This document shows positions 29,955 to 45,067 of a DNA stretch of 45,067 bases, piece by piece. The DNA lies in IMG/VR virus record IMGVR_UViG_3300037245_000415, positions 1 through 45,067 of that record; one strand, 5' to 3'. How positions within the stretch are numbered: the stretch's first letter is position 1; each line of letters starts with the position of its first letter. A program made the position numbers and the translations under genes. The DNA is from a virus. The notes under the pieces are model-generated. The model searched no databases. It was not told the DNA's origin and saw only the letters and a list, made by a program, of their open reading frames with translations.

Positions 29955-30596
29955 CTATTCTATCTGTTTAGGTTCACCAGCACTGCTAGCGGCCTGAGCT
30001 TCTTCTACTTGTTTAAGTAAGTTACCAGAGGGCATAGTAAGTAACTCCTGCTCCCCCGCTTTTACAACTTGATTATTTATGTCTATAGAAAACTTATCAG
30101 CTATGACATTAGGTAATATTAAGTTAACTATATTCTGCTGGTTATTAACTTGCGGGGGTGCTGACTGACCTCTACGCTTAGCATTGTTAACCTTAGTAAG
30201 AGCGTCAATAATATCTCTAGGGCGAACTAATAATGGCATAGCTCTCTCTAGCTTAATTATTAAATTGTCTTCTAAGCTATCATACTTCCCATCTCTTACA
30301 TTATGAGACTGTAATGCTTTATATCTTAAGTCAGATACTTTACTTGAAAAAGACTTTTCAGCTAACATCTGAGATATGCGGCCGGGGGTAACTCCTAATG
30401 CAGAAGCTACAGAATCAGAACCTACGCCGGAACCTAATAACGCCAAGGCTCTTTCTTCTACGCTAGAAGAGATACCGGGAGAGTAGTGGTTACTAGGGGC
30501 AGAAGGTTCTATAGCTACTTCAGGGGCTTCTATTACTTCTACACCTAAGCTAGCTAATAGTTCTTCATTACTTTTCGAGGGGGTTAATGTATTCAT
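29955..30596 (-). CDS. Putative terminase small subunit
   Basis: The 213-residue protein contains a helix-turn-helix-like region at about residues 45-80 (SVEERALALLGSGVGSDSVA followed by SALGVTPGRISQMLAE), as expected for DNA recognition by a small terminase. A helical middle is the likely oligomerisation part. The Ala/Glu/Lys tail could contact the large subunit. It is the first gene of the late - strand operon. No Shine-Dalgarno sequence precedes the ATG; instead a TATAAT box lies 6 bases upstream (see promoter), so translation may be leaderless. An alternative is that it is a DNA-binding regulator. Confidence 0.75.
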   Translation of the reverse strand: MNTLTPSKSNEELLASLGVEVIEAPEVAIEPSAPSNHYSPGISSSVEERALALLGSGVGSDSVASALGVTPGRISQMLAEKSFSSKVSDLRYKALQSHNVRDGKYDSLEDNLIIKLERAMPLLVRPRDIIDALTKVNNAKRRGQSAPPQVNNQQNIVNLILPNVIADKFSIDINNQVVKAGEQELLTMPSGNLLKQVEEAQAASSAGEPKQIE

Positions 30597-30602
30597 ATAC
30601 TT

Positions 30603-30631
30603 ATTATAGATATTGTATCTTATATAGTAAA
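30603..30631 (-). promoter_or_regulatory. Candidate sigma70 promoter for the late operon
   Basis: On the - strand, TTTACT (30626-30631), 17 bases, then a perfect TATAAT (30603-30608). Transcription would start at about the A of the small terminase ATG (30596), giving a leaderless or nearly leaderless mRNA. The -35 matches 4 of 6. Confidence 0.5.
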
Positions 30632-30788
30632 TCGGGGAATCAGGTATAGGTTCTTATCTAACTACTAGCTTTTATTACTTCTTATATAAGTACCTCTTAA
30701 AAAAGTTTAGGAATATATTATACGCTCCTTAGGATAGGACACCTCTCAATTTCTAAAAAGGCCTTGGCCCCCTCCCTAAAGATATAGA

Positions 30789-30809
30789 TGCGAATGAGAA
30801 TCATTAGTG
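30789..30809. promoter_or_regulatory. Fur-box-like palindrome
   Basis: The sequence TGCGAATGAGAATCATTAGT matches 14 of 19 positions of the classical Fur box, including the whole AATGAxAATCATT core. This core is used by many gammaproteobacterial ferric uptake regulators. Whether the host repressor binds here is not known. Confidence 0.4.
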
Positions 30810-30861
30810 GTTAGATTTAGAGCTTAGCTAGGAGATAGGTATAGATAGAGGGATAGATGCT

Positions 30862-30983
30862 GGGGGTGGCGGGGGTGGCGCGCGAAAGATTGCTTAAGAT
30901 ATAAGCAGTTAGCTAGATATAGATACACAGTCTATATATACAGGGGTATAGCGGGAATATAGCTGGCCATACTGGGGGTGGCG
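30862..30983 (+). repeat. Three copies of GGGGGTGGC
   Basis: GGGGGTGGCG occurs at 30862-30871, 30871-30880 and 30974-30983. The first two overlap and form G5-T-G2-C-G5-T-G2, which fits a two-tier G-quadruplex. The surrounding DNA is AT-rich, so these G runs stand out. Confidence 0.6.
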
Positions 30984-31075
30984 TGATAGTATAAGTATAG
31001 ATAGAGAGATACACACACAGATACACACACTTAGGCATAGATAGGGCAGATAGGCAGATAAGGAGTGATAATCTA

Positions 31076-31267
31076 ATGACTAAAAAACAAGCTATATTCG
31101 CTAAACAGCATGACTGGTTTAGATTAGCAGTTAACACTAAAGCATCTGGCTTCGCTGTTATTGTAGAAGATAATGGAACTAAAGAAGTCACTTGTTTTAC
31201 TAGTTTTTATGATATGTGTAAATGGGCAGGTTATATAATGCTTGGGTACTCAAATGAATATATCTGA
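31076..31267 (+). CDS. Small early protein, unknown (63 aa)
   Basis: The ATG at 31076 has AAGGAG ten bases upstream. The product (TKKQAIFAKQHDWFRLAVNT at the N-terminus, then beta-like strands GFAVIVEDNG and EVTCFTSFYDM) is a small alpha/beta protein not recognised as a family. As the first gene of the + strand block it is a candidate early host-takeover protein, which is typical for such positions but not shown. It overlaps the next small gene by 14 bases. Confidence 0.6.
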   Translation: MTKKQAIFAKQHDWFRLAVNTKASGFAVIVEDNGTKEVTCFTSFYDMCKWAGYIMLGYSNEYI

Positions 31268-31415
31268 TAGTAAACTAGCTTATAAACTAACTTATAAACT
31301 TAAACTTATCCTTGCTGTAACTAAATGCGTTGTTATCATCTGGTTACTAGGTTTAAGAGACTTATTAATATTAGCTGCTCGCTGTGTAAGAAGGAAGAAG
31401 GAAGTTAGAAGCTAG
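31254..31415 (+). CDS. Small putative membrane protein (53 aa)
   Basis: The frame ATG 31254 to TAG 31415 encodes 53 residues. A central hydrophobic stretch (LKLILAVTKCVVIIWLLGLR, followed by DLLILAA) could span the membrane once. A strongly basic C-terminus (RRKKEVRS) would stay in the cytoplasm by the positive-inside rule. It starts inside the preceding gene, in another frame, and has no clear ribosome binding site, so it would depend on coupling. Confidence 0.4.
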   Translation: MNISDSKLAYKLTYKLKLILAVTKCVVIIWLLGLRDLLILAARCVRRKKEVRS

Positions 31416-31472
31416 AAGCTAATAGATAAGAGTTAGTTTTGTAAGTAGTTAGTTAAAAGAGGAAAATAAATA

Positions 31473-31533
31473 TGGCACGAAATGGCACGGTTTGGCAGGA
31501 TTTGCCCGATTGTGCCAAAATGCCATTGTGCCA
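31473..31533. repeat. Pentamer array 1 (TGGCA/TGCCA), phased
   Basis: TGGCA at 31473, 31483 and 31493, a degenerate TGCCC at 31503, then TGCCA at 31513, 31521 and 31529. Steps are 10,10,10,10,8,8 bases. Because TGCCA is the complement of TGGCA, the two halves face each other. Confidence 0.8.
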
Positions 31534-31598
31534 CGAACAATTCGGGTCGGTATTTGTGTATATTCCTCCCTTTTGGGCATCGCTCTTATCTAACTACT

Positions 31599-31742
31599 TG
31601 TGTATATATCTCTTATCTATAACTATGTATATTAGTAAGTCTATTAGTATGTATGTATTAGTGAATGAAAAACAATATATACCCCATTAGAATAGACATC
31701 AATCAGATATACAGGCATAGCTAGATAAGAGATATATACACA
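31599..31742. repeat. 21-base perfect inverted repeat
   Basis: Arms 31599-31619 and 31722-31742 are exact reverse complements over 21 bases. The core GTGTATATATCTCTTATCT reappears reversed. The centre is near 31670 with a 102-base spacer. Outside the arms, CTTATCTAACTACT (31585-31598) has a near-complementary copy at about 31766-31779 with one mismatch, extending the dyad. Confidence 0.8.
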
Positions 31743-31834
31743 CTTATAGATAACTACTTGTATATGGTAGTAGTTAGGTAAGAAGGAAGGATAGAAATAG
31801 GGCCATATACAGGGAAATAGGGCTTGACATCCGA

Positions 31835-31895
31835 TGGCACTATGGCACAATGGCACGATATGGCAGCATTTGGCACACTTTGGCAGATCGTGCCA
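31835..31895. repeat. Pentamer array 2 (TGGCA), phased
   Basis: TGGCA at 31835, 31843, 31851, 31861, 31871 and 31881, then TGCCA at 31891. Steps are 8,8,10,10,10,10 bases, the exact mirror of array 1. TTGACA at 31824-31829 with CACAAT at 31846-31851 (16-base spacer) could be a weak promoter covered by the array. Confidence 0.85.
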
Positions 31896-31936
31896 CGAAA
31901 AGCCTCAATTTCTTAACTAAGAGGGAGTAAAACATC

Positions 31937-32485
31937 ATGTTAAATAAGACATCAACAAATGTAAATAGTATTGACGCTGCTAAGTATAATACAGTAGACC
32001 ATCCTGACGTATTGCCTATGGATTGGGATTTACATAAATATAAAGAAGCAGATAATATAACAATAGCAAATGCTATTAAAATACTAGAATCAAGAATTAA
32101 CACCGGCCCACTTTTTAATAGTCCTAATCAAATTAAGGAGTTCTTGCGTTTAAAATTAGCAACTAGAAAAGAAGAAGTGTTTGCAGCTGTGTTTGTGGAT
32201 ACTCAATATAGACTGATTGAATACCGAGAAATGTCAGTAGGTACAATAGATCGCTGCGCTGTATACCCTAGAGAAGTGGCTTTAGCGGCATTAGAGCTTA
32301 ATGCTAAGGCTGTTATCTTTTGCCATAATCACCCTAGTGGTGATACAACGCCTAGTGAAGCAGACAAGCGCATGACTAAAGACCTTATTAGCTCGCTTGG
32401 GCTTCTTGATATTAAAGTACTTGATCACATCATTGTAGGCTGCGGCGATGCAACTAGTTTTGCTGAAAGAGGGCTAATATTATGA
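31937..32485 (+). CDS. RadC/JAB-domain (JAMM) protein
   Basis: The 182-residue protein ends in a complete RadC-type JAB domain. The segment VGTIDRCAVYPREVALAALE is followed by AKAVIFCHNHPSGDTTPSEA, with zinc ligands H130, H132 and D143, and then VLDHIIVG at 161-168. RadC-like proteins are widespread on plasmids, phages and islands. Despite the old name they are not proven DNA-repair enzymes and may be JAMM-type hydrolases acting in anti-defence or recombination. The first 75 residues are phage-specific and contain an Asn/Asp-rich start. The ATG at 31937 follows GAGGGAG. It is the first gene after the mirrored arrays and overlaps the next gene by four bases. Confidence 0.88.
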   Translation: MLNKTSTNVNSIDAAKYNTVDHPDVLPMDWDLHKYKEADNITIANAIKILESRINTGPLFNSPNQIKEFLRLKLATRKEEVFAAVFVDTQYRLIEYREMSVGTIDRCAVYPREVALAALELNAKAVIFCHNHPSGDTTPSEADKRMTKDLISSLGLLDIKVLDHIIVGCGDATSFAERGLIL

Positions 32486-32721
32486 GCACTAAAAACCCTA
32501 ATACTCATTATATAGTGCGCTATAAAGACGGCAGACCTATAGAAGCTTCTCCTATTCCTTGCCCTAAAGAGATGGCAATGAAATTAGCTTATGATACAGA
32601 ATACGAATATAGCGTTTATACTTATGGTATATTAACTATAGAGGCTGTAGAACTACAAGGCATTCCAGTTAGTACTATGACTATGGAAGAAGCTAACAAG
32701 GCAGCTAAAACAAAACACTAG
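32482..32721 (+). CDS. Protein of unknown function (79 aa)
   Basis: The ATG overlaps the RadC stop (ATGA). The protein has strand-like segments (HYIVRYKDGRPIEASPIPCP) and ends basic (NKAAKTKH). It shares its first bases (ATGAGCACTAAAAA) with the gene at 33541, both after the same ATTATG context. Its tight coupling to the RadC gene suggests a partner role, but no family was recognised. Confidence 0.6.
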   Translation: MSTKNPNTHYIVRYKDGRPIEASPIPCPKEMAMKLAYDTEYEYSVYTYGILTIEAVELQGIPVSTMTMEEANKAAKTKH

Positions 32722-33540: not shown

Positions 33541-33954
33541 ATGAGCACTAAAAATAAACTAAACAAATACCGGCCTTCTCTTACCTCGGATGACATATTA
33601 CATATTATATCATTAGCTAAATTAGAGCAGCCGGCTATATCAACTGCATCTATATCAGTTATTTCTAAACTAGCGCCATTTCAAGCTAAGATAGAGAATG
33701 AAGGGCTTACAGCGTCTAATGCTAATACTGAACTGATAGATATAGCGGAGACTGTATTTAATTCTGCTATAAAAGCAGGTCATTTATCAAAAGAAGTCTA
33801 CTGGCAAAACTGCTACAATAAATGGGAAGATACCCCCACTTTTTGCAGCTTAGATGAAATAATAGGGGCTAATGAACACCGCTATTTAAATGATCTAATG
33901 TCACCAGAAGAAGCGGTAGAGTTTGAGGCTAAATCTGATAAGGATAAAATCTAA
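33541..33954 (+). CDS. Protein of unknown function (137 aa)
   Basis: Helical protein with a Ser/Thr/Ile-rich middle (QPAISTASISVISKLAPFQA) and an acidic end. It overlaps the 329-residue gene by one base (TAATGG). No motif was recognised. Conserved coupling with the following gene suggests that both work together. Confidence 0.6.
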   Translation: MSTKNKLNKYRPSLTSDDILHIISLAKLEQPAISTASISVISKLAPFQAKIENEGLTASNANTELIDIAETVFNSAIKAGHLSKEVYWQNCYNKWEDTPTFCSLDEIIGANEHRYLNDLMSPEEAVEFEAKSDKDKI

Positions 33955-34943
33955 TGGCTACTGTGACGTGCGCTATATCGGGCTTACGGTTTAAAACTTG
34001 CTATCTAAATAATCTATCTATCTCTCATACCGCCGGATACTTTCATCCAGTGTTTGCATTATCCTATACTCAGCTACATGCTTTATATTCCCAACATTGC
34101 AAAGGGCAGCTACCGGCTAAAGATAGCTATCTTTTATTCCTTGCTTTTCTTAATTCTTCTGATCAAATAGATTGGCAACATCCAGTAACATTAGACCCCA
34201 ATAAAGACTCTACTAAAAAGCTTATAGAAAACTATTTAGCTCAGCTAGTGAGTGTTTTAGAGAAGACTGGGCTTATAAGACATCCCTCATTTTCTCAACC
34301 ATCTTTTAAAGTAACCTTACATACAGCCTATCTTGAGCAAATACCTTGCTGGATAGAAGCATGGCAAGATAATATCGATAGCTTTTATACTGGGCGCGCT
34401 GATCTTAAAACTCAGCAAGATTTACAGGCAGTGGAAAATAGATTATCCAGACTTATTCTTTCAGGAGAGAAGCCAGAAAAATTCGCTCATGTAATAGCTA
34501 ATTGGGCTAATCAGGCGGCTATATTTCCAGAAATAAAAGCAGAGCTGTACATGAAAACTATAAGATCTTGTTTTAATATTAATAAAATGTTTAATACTCC
34601 GCTGCCTTTGCTTAAAGAGATAAAAGATTGCTGCGAATGTAATATAGAAGTGGGCAGTATACATTTTCATACTCTCATGCATGTATTAAAAGAGGGTATA
34701 GCAAGACACGTAGACTATTTAGGCGGCAGCAGTTTAGCATTAGGTTATACATTACTTGATTCTCCTATAGGGCAAAAACCTACTGTAGCAATGAGGCAGG
34801 CAGAAGCTAAAACAGATGATGATTTACTCGCACTGGCAGCTAATGCACCTAGTGAAGAACCTAAAGCAGCAGATTATGATAGCTCCTTAGAGTTATTAAA
34901 AGCTAAGCTAGCTTATAGAGTAGCTAAGAAACTGAAAAACTAA
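33954..34943 (+). CDS. Protein of unknown function (329 aa), possible replication accessory
   Basis: The N-terminus has CAISGLRFKTC, an isolated Cys pair, then TAGYFHPVFALSYTQLHALY. The long middle is helical with aromatic residues. Around 205-250 are several cysteines and histidines (CFNINKMF; CCECNIEVGSIHFHTLMHVL), which could bind zinc. The last 60 residues are Ala/Asp/Glu/Lys-rich and probably flexible. This N-terminal pattern resembles unknown proteins near replication genes in other phages, but I cannot name a family. It lies upstream of the paralogue pair and the helicase. Confidence 0.6.
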   Translation: MATVTCAISGLRFKTCYLNNLSISHTAGYFHPVFALSYTQLHALYSQHCKGQLPAKDSYLLFLAFLNSSDQIDWQHPVTLDPNKDSTKKLIENYLAQLVSVLEKTGLIRHPSFSQPSFKVTLHTAYLEQIPCWIEAWQDNIDSFYTGRADLKTQQDLQAVENRLSRLILSGEKPEKFAHVIANWANQAAIFPEIKAELYMKTIRSCFNINKMFNTPLPLLKEIKDCCECNIEVGSIHFHTLMHVLKEGIARHVDYLGGSSLALGYTLLDSPIGQKPTVAMRQAEAKTDDDLLALAANAPSEEPKAADYDSSLELLKAKLAYRVAKKLKN

Positions 34944-43022: not shown

Positions 43023-43319
43023 ATGAGTTTCTATATACCTAAAAAAACTAAACCTAAGTTCACAACAGCAGAAGATGATATTATATTACAGAAAATAGCA
43101 GACTTAACGAGTCACGAAGCAGATGCCTTTCACCTATTTATAAATGGTGTACCTACAGTGCAGATAGCTATTGATCTAAATTTATCCATTAACTATCTTA
43201 ATCATGTTAATTCGTATATGAGACATAACTTTAGCGTCAAAAGCCTAACCGCTCTAGCTGTGTTAGTTATACCTGCTATGATTAGAAAAGAGTGCGAAGA
43301 ATTTTTAGAAGAAGAATAA
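43023..43319 (+). CDS. GerE/LuxR-type helix-turn-helix protein (98 aa)
   Basis: Residues about 28-83 follow the LuxR/GerE DNA-binding pattern closely: LTSHEADAFHLFINGVPTVQ then IAIDLNLSINYLNHVNSYM and HNFSVKSLTALAVLVI. It keeps LT-x-x-E, the glycine before the first helix pair, IA-x-x-L-x-x-S, the histidine after the recognition helix and V-x-S-x-x-x-L. There is no receiver or ligand-binding domain, so it is a stand-alone regulator. It lies directly before the polymerase gene, which starts 11 bases later with its own ribosome binding site, and after a terminator, so it is the first gene of its operon. Likely a transcription factor for phage or host genes. Confidence 0.75.
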   Translation: MSFYIPKKTKPKFTTAEDDIILQKIADLTSHEADAFHLFINGVPTVQIAIDLNLSINYLNHVNSYMRHNFSVKSLTALAVLVIPAMIRKECEEFLEEE

Positions 43320-43329
43320 GGAGTAAGGT

Positions 43330-45067
43330 GTGATAGACTTATCTGAACATATAGCTAATCTAAAAGCTAAAGAAGCAGCAGCCCCGGCAGACTCACCCTT
43401 AGCTCAAGCTGATAATGCTATCTTATTCTGGGGTACTTCTTTTGATAGAAACTACCTCCCTCACCTTAAAGGCTGCGTAGGTTCTGCTACTACATTCATT
43501 CGCTTAGAGCCTGTAACTACATTAGTTACTGTAAAGATGTATTGTAGTAAGAAGAAGATTACCCGCGTTATATCTACCAGCGTAGAGCTATTAAAAAAAC
43601 TATTACACTGGGATAAAAAGAAAGCTCCTAGCCTAGCTAATTATGCGGGCAGTTATTTTAAAATCCCAGGGCATACTGACACTGACCCTGAGATAGAGAT
43701 AGTATTCATACAGCCATTGAAGCAGCTAACCACAGTTACCTATGGTAAGTTCATGGCTACAAGACTTATAAGTAAGCTGACTAAGCCAGAGAAGTGGTAT
43801 CAAGCTACTGAGTTTAGTTGGAGTATACTTACCCCTGAGAATGAGGAGCTTTACTTCTTAAACTTTCTTAATGCTTTCCTTATTTGTATAGACATAGAGA
43901 CATTCAAAGAGAATGCTACTATACGTTGTTTGTCTTATACAGCTTTCTACTTTAAGCGAGGTAAGATAATATCAGATAGTGTAGTCCTACCCTTAGACTC
44001 AGAATATAATCTATCAATCATGCGCAAGTGGAACTGGCAGCTACAAGCGCCCAAGGTATTTCAGAATGGAAAATATGACATCGCTTACCTTACTAGATAT
44101 AACGCTCCTGTATATAACTATCTATATGATACTGCTAATCTCTTTCATTGCTGGTATAGTGAACTCCCTAAAGATCTCGGATTCCTTAACTCTTTCTTTA
44201 TCCGAGAGGCGGTGTATTGGAAAGACCTTGCTGAAACTAATGATCTGCATGAGTACTACCGTTACAATGCTCTTGATACTTGGGGTACTGGTAATGCATT
44301 TCTGGCAATGATGCTTGAAGCCCCAAGCTATGCTATATCTAACTACCTCTTAGAGTTCCCTCTTACATTTCCTTGTCACCTATCAGAGATGACAGGCATA
44401 GACAGAGACATGGATAAGTTTGAAGTAGCTAGAAAGCAGCAGCAAGAGATAGTAGATATAGAATCTGCCAGCCTTAATGCTATGTTAGGTGTACCTAAAG
44501 GGGAGACATTTAATGTTAAGTCTTCTCCTCAGATGAAAGCATTATTTAAAACTCTAGGCTGCTCTGATCTTAAATCACAAGATGAAAAGAATCTTAAGAA
44601 AGCTAGGTTCCGCCATCCCTTTAATGCAAGAATATTAGGCAAAGTATTAAAGATAAGAAAGGCTAGGACTCTTGTATCTAATTACCTCACAGCAGGTAAA
44701 GAGTTCCCCCGGCTAGATGGCACAGGTAACAGATTTTTATACAGCCTTAACCCTCACGGTACTGATAGTAGCCGCCTAGCTTCTAAGTCTCACCACTTCT
44801 GGTGCGGCGATAACATACAGAAGATACCGCGTGGCCCTATAGTTAAGCAGACATTTCGCGCTGACCCTGGATTCCTATTAGCTGAAGTGGATCTGGAGCA
44901 GGCAGAATCAAGAGACACTGGTTATATATCTGGAGATGAACAGCTAATACATAATGTAGAGCACAGCCCTGACTTTCATAAATCAAATGCATCAGGCTTC
45001 TTTGGTGTACCTTTCGAAGAAGTAACTAAAGGGTTAAGACAGCTAGGTAAGCCAGTTAACCACGGCG
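43330..45067 (+). CDS. Family A DNA polymerase, N-terminal part with 3'-5' exonuclease (3' end cut by window edge)
   Basis: The start is GTG 43330 with AAGGAG just upstream. The 579 residues present hold a full proofreading domain: motif I ICIDIETF (D188, E190), motif II FQNGKYDIAY (N246, D250) and motif III YRYNALDTW (Y312, D316). The polymerase domain starts with RKARTLVSNYLTAG; motif A is AEVDLEQAESRD with D521. It is cut in motif B (R570, K574, ending KPVNHG at the edge). The remaining piece is at 1-646, giving roughly 800 residues in all. The frame at the edge requires a number of missing bases equal to 1 modulo 3. The N-terminal 185 residues form an extra domain of unknown fold. It would replicate the phage genome together with the helicases and SSB-like protein. 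Confidence 0.92.
   Translation, partial: MIDLSEHIANLKAKEAAAPADSPLAQADNAILFWGTSFDRNYLPHLKGCVGSATTFIRLEPVTTLVTVKMYCSKKKITRVISTSVELLKKLLHWDKKKAPSLANYAGSYFKIPGHTDTDPEIEIVFIQPLKQLTTVTYGKFMATRLISKLTKPEKWYQATEFSWSILTPENEELYFLNFLNAFLICIDIETFKENATIRCLSYTAFYFKRGKIISDSVVLPLDSEYNLSIMRKWNWQLQAPKVFQNGKYDIAYLTRYNAPVYNYLYDTANLFHCWYSELPKDLGFLNSFFIREAVYWKDLAETNDLHEYYRYNALDTWGTGNAFLAMMLEAPSYAISNYLLEFPLTFPCHLSEMTGIDRDMDKFEVARKQQQEIVDIESASLNAMLGVPKGETFNVKSSPQMKALFKTLGCSDLKSQDEKNLKKARFRHPFNARILGKVLKIRKARTLVSNYLTAGKEFPRLDGTGNRFLYSLNPHGTDSSRLASKSHHFWCGDNIQKIPRGPIVKQTFRADPGFLLAEVDLEQAESRDTGYISGDEQLIHNVEHSPDFHKSNASGFFGVPFEEVTKGLRQLGKPVNHG

Follow-up and report, generated by a model that had tools for sequence, protein, structure and literature searches.

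The analysed window is the whole of one podovirus-like IMG/VR contig (IMGVR_UViG_3300037245_000415; 45,067 nt, ~45 kb). A PolA-type DNA polymerase gene runs across the junction of the two contig ends (ORFs 43330-45066 and 2-646), indicating a nearly complete phage genome in circularly permuted form. From a probable small terminase gene (TerS, HTH; 29955-30596, minus strand) the late genes run leftward, and early and replication genes run rightward. Two short-repeat arrays lie in the divergent gap, and the genes on both sides all point away from them. The gene set is of lytic type, with no integrase seen, and the terminase is 34-38% identical to those of Fredfastierviridae (PaP2, 119X, PaMx41) and Aeromonas phage P5, to whose counterparts the portal, primase, polymerase and helicase are also related. 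TerS is the next late gene to the arrays, and the first annotated gene to the right of array 2 is RadC-like (PF04002; 31937-32485, plus strand). The adjacency to this gene pointed out in the original prediction is real but incidental, as none of the relatives checked has RadC, which was dropped as a functional partner. A GC-skew minimum near 30-31 kb falls where transcription diverges and proves nothing about an origin. We also noted a G-rich element, TGGGGGTGGCG, that is present three times among TAGATA/GATA repeats at 30857-30983, in noncoding DNA between TerS and small early-side ORFs.

The left array (array 1, 31473-31533) comprises seven units of TGSCA, the self-complementary pentamer of which TGGCA and TGCCA are the two forms, starting at 31473, 31483, 31493, 31503, 31513, 31521 and 31529 (steps of 10, 10, 10, 10, 8 and 8); the unit at 31503 is degenerate (TGCCC). 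The right array (array 2, 31835-31895) has seven perfect units starting at 31835, 31843, 31851, 31861, 31871, 31881 and 31891 (steps of 8, 8, 10, 10, 10 and 10). Neither array is assigned to a strand. The exact site list agrees with the seven occurrences per array originally predicted, the unit coordinates bear out a mirrored order of spacings around position 31684, and the letters between the pentamers differ, as had been said. Orientation is inverted too, with an inner triple of TGCCA on the left (31513, 31521 and 31529) and of TGGCA on the right (31835, 31843 and 31851). Array 1 scored 34/35 and array 2 35/35 against their spacing templates, whereas no score exceeded 24 when the entire contig was simulated 100 times (Markov-1), and the longest 8/10-step chain of any XYSY'X' word was seven units long, compared with three or fewer in the simulations (n=100); the mirrored arrangement is therefore far beyond chance in these simulations. 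A mirrored triple scoring at least 27/30 occurs at a single place in the 45-kb genome, the array locus itself.

Judged from its sequence, the array region is noncoding. The ORF overlapping array 1 (31472-31690) matches just 43 aa, partially, in one relative, in line with the original placing of the locus outside any convincing gene. An Rfam scan of positions 30500-32500 gave no match, nor did a DNA BLAST of the locus against the phage collection. Sigma54 promoters (TGGCAC-N5-TTGC) were rejected on inspection, as the GG-GC spacing falls short by one base and relatives vary in their word.

Relatives, all of them metagenomic contigs, were recovered by array-independent searches using the terminase and a conserved 329-aa early protein, p329 (33954-34943, plus strand); pattern scans containing TGGCA are circular and served solely for collecting examples. 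The common layout among these relatives is two inverted arrays around an AT-rich core with a central ACCCC/GGGG element. Array 2 steps of 8, 8, 10, 10, 10 and 10 recur in L031/L081 and steps of 8, 8, 10, 10 and 10 in L068, so that the conserved spacing on which the original prediction had been made to depend is found at related loci; elsewhere 10, 10, 8, 8 is mirrored by 8, 8, 10, 10 (L017/L153) and, in a second clade, 8, 8, 8, 9 by 9, 8, 8, 8. Irrespective of word, mirrored 8-bp triples scoring at least 27/30 were present in 43 of 80 p329 loci, compared with 1 of 77 unrelated loci and none of 80 shuffles, while same-orientation triple pairs were found in just 8 of the 80. Four near-complete relatives (G001, G002, G003 and G005) have a mirrored triple at one place each, and two more (G006 and G007) failed this strict test with weaker arrays visible. 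Among 50 loci spanning TerS to p329, 30 passed the strict 8-bp test and 20 failed; looser spacing rescues some of the 20 and suggests 9-bp versions in a few.

The array words found across the group were TGGCA, CAGTC/CGGTC/AGTCT (RGTCT), GGATA/TAGGA/CGGGA, CATTG, GTTAT and TGTCA; GTTAT, CATTG, CTATT and AATTG were each seen at one locus, and the best-word choice can be off at single loci, some windows being shifted by one base (e.g. GCATT for TGGCA). Both arrays of one phage share the same word, which switches in both together, and on a p329 tree the word labels need six changes, with TGNCA not forming a single clade. Spacing and mirror symmetry are thus kept while spacers, core length and word vary, and this comparison of loci gives good support to conserved protein-contact phasing rather than a recent copy event, as had been proposed from the contig. 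The steps fit helical phase in the outer, 10-bp parts of the arrays in the contig's clade; the inner 8-bp steps and the 8, 8, 8, 9 clade do not.

Between the arrays lies a noncoding core (31534-31834, no strand assigned). Across the group the core length is 210-411 bp, with a median of 301 bp, and the inter-array distance varies from 231 to 432 bp. The least stable 100 bp of the 45-kb genome falls within the core (start 31583), as it does in four of six further near-complete relatives (G001, G002, G005 and G006); core instability in the other two (G003 and G007) is above the 99.8th percentile of the genome. An AT-rich 25-mer, usually followed by ACCCC or GTGGGG, lies no more than 15% from the core midpoint in 89% of 44 loci compared with 35% expected. 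Left and right half-core lengths around the AT centre showed no correlation, thus the element is near-central but not exactly centred. In the contig this central element (31660-31705, plus strand) consists of an A/T stretch, ACCCC and an ACATCAA-type end; its ACCCC (31681-31685) sits on the mirror centre at 31684, and the counterpart in relatives is AATTTTGATACCCCCTAAATATACCG / AATTTTAAGTGGGGGTATAAA. The core halves share inverted repeats longer than expected in the group, that of the contig being a perfect 21-bp repeat with its left arm at 31599-31619 (plus strand) and its right arm at 31722-31742 (minus strand). Purine excess changes sign between the core halves in 32 of 42 loci (p=0.0009) with no switch in the outer flanks, and the contig's core resembles the group in having a pyrimidine-rich left half and a purine-rich right half. 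The inter-array distance exhibited no helical phase (Rayleigh R 0.09 at 10.5 bp), and a rigid DNA loop was rejected on this ground.

Five nucleotides before array 2 we found TTGACA (31824-31829, plus strand), the candidate -35 box of a rightward early promoter; after a 16-bp spacer, a weak candidate -10 (CACAAT, 31846-31851, plus strand) is composed of array-2 units. Of 44 loci, 37 have TTGAC within 50 bp on the inner side of the right array and one has it at the mirrored left position (shuffles: mean 2.0, maximum 7). The distance of TTGAC from the array is 4-8 nt in many loci, including the contig, and up to 35 nt in others. As array units make up the candidate -10, occupancy of array 2 would cover the promoter.

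The candidate reader of the arrays is p137, a 137-aa early protein (33541-33954, plus strand) whose gene is upstream of p329, with p329 directly downstream. Its N-terminal K-Y-R-P-S-L segment is followed by two predicted helices. This segment is mostly K[YF]RP[VS]L in phages with TGGCA arrays and K[YF]RPY[FL] in those with CAGTC/AGTCT arrays. Word distance was correlated with p137 distance most strongly over the 7-residue N-terminal segment (Mantel rho 0.68), followed by the first 46 residues (0.62) and the rest of the protein (0.56), and the corresponding partial correlations given p329 were 0.63 (p=0.002), 0.57 and 0.49; Mantel tests treat related sequences as exchangeable, so these p values are approximate and the covariation rests on related sequences. 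When only profile-found p137 sequences were used the correlation with word distance was 0.67. After p137 was accounted for, the word correlation left was 0.11 for p329, -0.09 for TerS, 0.12 for the helicase and -0.03 for p248; p137 had been picked after the word was seen to correlate with its presence, among three proteins first profiled, and these four controls were tested after that choice. p329, whose correlation vanishes given p137, was discarded as a word reader. It is helical with no known relative (the AF2 model and PDB search were uninformative) and is a possible replication partner.

Comparisons of p137 with Pfam, PHROG and PDB identified no family match. An AF2 monomer model (46 sequences, pLDDT 85.5) has an extended segment at residues 8-15, helices at 16-27 and 35-52 and then a linker, a predicted topology whose resemblance to ribbon-helix-helix proteins is only suggested, and a Foldseek search with the model returned no significant match. 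The ribbon-helix-helix reader of the original prediction is therefore no more than suggested by the modelled extended segment and two helices, and finds no significant counterpart in the fold and family searches. The profile did not pick up the small p137-like proteins of L226, L233, L256 and L257, which were identified by visual inspection. The p137-like N-termini of L024/L277 (VYRMTI), L256 (HRLTI) and L257 (VFRPVI) go with TGGYA, AATKG and TGTCA-type arrays, respectively, and these divergent N-termini are useful natural variants for a recognition code. Two p329 loci without p137 (L215 and L218) may carry 9-bp-spaced mirrored ATGAT units together with a different early protein of ~214 aa near the arrays. 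A 98-aa GerE/LuxR-like ORF before the DNA polymerase gene (43023-43319) was dismissed as a reader, its Pfam match being sub-threshold (E 0.013), and no counterpart was found in relatives by tblastn.

A scan of contigs for the array pattern returned three, among them L195 (JAJCYU010000427.1), which sits in an Anaerolineae MAG bin. It has the TerS, p137 and p329 of this phage group, indicating that it is a phage contig binned with a bacterium; as a phage of the group is filed under an Anaerolineae MAG in this way, no host was inferred. Another array-bearing contig, L194 (JAKLHL010000111.1), sits in a Bdellovibrionales MAG bin.

Since the layout recurs while the word and p137 change together, the site probably serves to start replication of the viral genome or to switch the genome on. 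We lean, with some caution, towards an iteron-type mirrored origin bound by p137 that would also auto-control an early promoter. At known origins an initiator on multiple sites opens an adjacent A+T-rich region (PMC5043065). The locus described here has multiple copies of a short site (two arrays of seven, conserved in relatives and presumably protein-bound), an adjacent unstable A+T-rich region, and a putative initiator in p137, which covaries with the word better than four control proteins. Origin iterons had been one of the functions suggested by the original prediction and form the best-supported reading, given the instability maximum, the AT segment, the strand-composition switch and the covarying protein; this part of the prediction is thus favoured rather than proved. 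We propose that p137 would bind the 8/10-bp-spaced units of both arrays cooperatively, creating two facing nucleoprotein blocks that strain the AT-rich core until it melts near the central ACCCC/GGGG element. The melted core could then load the phage primase-helicase, the PolA-type polymerase and possibly p329, with forks leaving in both directions. Array 2 would also cover the candidate sigma70-like early promoter, which would fire away from the core, so that p137 would damp its own operon. Transcription in this direction would leave negative supercoils at the core, as in lambda, where negative supercoils can let an outward-directed promoter activate the origin (PMC5043065).

The main rival is an operator, with or without a loop, that has no origin function, an explanation we regard as possible and less probable than the mirrored origin. 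The arrays would then be high-affinity repressor sites through which p137 or another early protein shuts off early transcription, with array 2 over the early promoter, array 1 ~300 bp upstream and perhaps looped to it, and the core mere upstream promoter DNA. The TTGAC at the inner edge of array 2, the overlap of array units with the would-be -10 and the position of p137 in the early operon downstream are what an operator calls for; a one-sided promoter covered by an array fits it as well as it fits an origin, and a divergent promoter region would likewise be expected to contain AT-rich intergenic DNA. Looping sits poorly with an inter-array distance that lacks helical phase, and upstream promoter DNA with an AT-rich element that stays near the core midpoint while core length doubles, with the genome's instability maximum and with a skew switch inside the core. 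Moreover, a full second array with exactly mirrored spacing exceeds the needs of a looping operator. The near-central unstable element and the skew switch in a noncoding core tilt the balance towards an origin over an operator, only moderately.

The other explanations are much less probable. In phage SPP1, two protein-binding regions (pacL and pacR) lie around a central site (pacC) near the terminase genes. By analogy, TerS rings could occupy both arrays on either side of a cleavage site, and TerS is indeed the next late gene; ring-shaped TerS proteins with HTH arrays are known pac-site readers (PMC4737164). We disfavour such a packaging site and consider it improbable, since phages with different words have an identical TerS recognition helix (GV..SRISQLLS) and hence TerS is not the word reader. 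TerS specificity is not matched to the repeats: its distance does not track the word (rho 0.13 at 22 loci, 0.27 at 23 loci). The arrays are also mirror-symmetric, as one-way packaging need not be. We consider it still less probable that a ribbon-helix-helix protein coats the arrays into a segregation complex, even though the split parC of plasmid R1, with two repeat clusters around the par promoter and a ribbon-helix-helix binding protein that represses it (PMC5016525), demonstrates that such an arrangement can serve segregation and p137 is modelled with two helices after an extended N-terminal stretch. The early proteins scanned (Pfam, PHROGs) included no ParA/ParM/TubZ-like partner, and thus no segregation NTPase beside the binding protein as in type II (ParMRC) systems, the gene set is lytic in type, and the promoter lies at the inner edge of one array, not centrally as in R1. 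For the centromere-like site of the original prediction, the layout of the arrays is consequently all the support there is. Slippage does produce short tandem units, and L217 contains TAGGATAT in five perfect copies; chance or a mutational by-product, whether a short unit duplicated in tandem or one array duplicated in inverted form, could in principle yield repeats of this kind. The conserved layout already refutes such an origin of the arrays, to which we give almost no weight: they are unmatched in 100 simulations, their spacers are not copied, mirrored pairs occur in 43 of 80 p329 loci against 1 of 77 controls, and words change in concert with p137.

The mirrored origin that we favour shares parts with several known systems. 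Like the lambda origin, it has repeated sites beside an A+T-rich opening region, a putative initiator in an early operon and, close by, a promoter possibly directed outwards (PMC5043065). The four 19-bp iterons of lambda are one-sided and lie within gene O, whereas in the phage described here a core is flanked on either side by one of two mirrored, noncoding arrays of 8/10-bp units, and no O/P homologue was recognised in this phage. Short direct-repeat arrays beside an A+T-rich stretch, with cognate initiator specificity, are also found in iteron plasmids (P1, RK2, R6K gamma); their iterons are generally in helical phase (PMC5043065), whereas many steps here are 8 or 9 bp, the arrays face each other and no Rep-family protein was recognised. 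In the PLE satellites of Vibrio cholerae the DNA-binding domain of a RepA_N initiator changes together with the origin repeats, the remainder being conserved, and several swaps of specificity have taken place (PMC8263062), similar to the covariation of word and p137. The PLE iterons are three semi-palindromic copies of ~30 bp, in contrast to the mirrored double array of the phage, and p137 is not RepA_N by any search run. R1 split parC likewise has two repeat clusters near a promoter and a small dimeric repressing binder (PMC5016525), but here the arrays are inverted, the promoter is at the edge instead of the centre, no segregation NTPase was found among the early proteins scanned and the ribbon-helix-helix fold of p137 is putative. 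Unlike SPP1 pac, the arrays are mirror-symmetric, and TerS does not covary with the word.

More tentatively, and with rather less confidence than in the origin itself, we suggest a new kind of phage origin in which mirror-image iteron arrays facing each other across a melting core are read by small proteins of a new family, with the word determined by their N-terminal segment, and in which origin and reader have switched together many times within one uncultured family. If so, repeated joint switching could serve escape from superinfecting relatives or satellites. Dozens of natural p137-array pairs link a short protein segment to a DNA word across the whole family in a testable way; they suffice for a recognition code and allow testing of how phage replicons change specificity. 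An origin would also be placed in a phage group that has no cultured representative among the 50,697 phage records searched, from which p137 and p329 were both absent, and a protein family of unassigned function would be given a concrete job to test.

Fredfastierviridae and P5 share with this group a two-arm divergent genome plan as well as the related terminase, portal, primase, polymerase and helicase, but in the same tests showed neither mirrored 8-bp arrays nor a p137-like N-terminus; the mirrored-triple test likewise found no such arrays in the cultured distant relatives PaP2, P5 and Tiera. In PaP2 (L174), CAAGGT units spaced at 10-11-bp steps and, on the opposite side, ACCTTG units (43649-43694 and 199-226) were noted by eye. 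These CAAGG/CCTTG units flank an AT-rich stretch across the record junction and may be a distant counterpart; as they failed the mirrored-triple test, we regard them as suggestive and do not claim them as analogous arrays. Contig ends of near-complete relatives in our own group fall at varied places, and the arrays were accordingly rejected as genome termini. In Polaromonas phage Tiera (L175), a segment of ~70 bp (CAGTATCCGGTGGGCGCGTCGATAATGGGG...) is duplicated in tandem in a divergent noncoding region at ~43980-44110.
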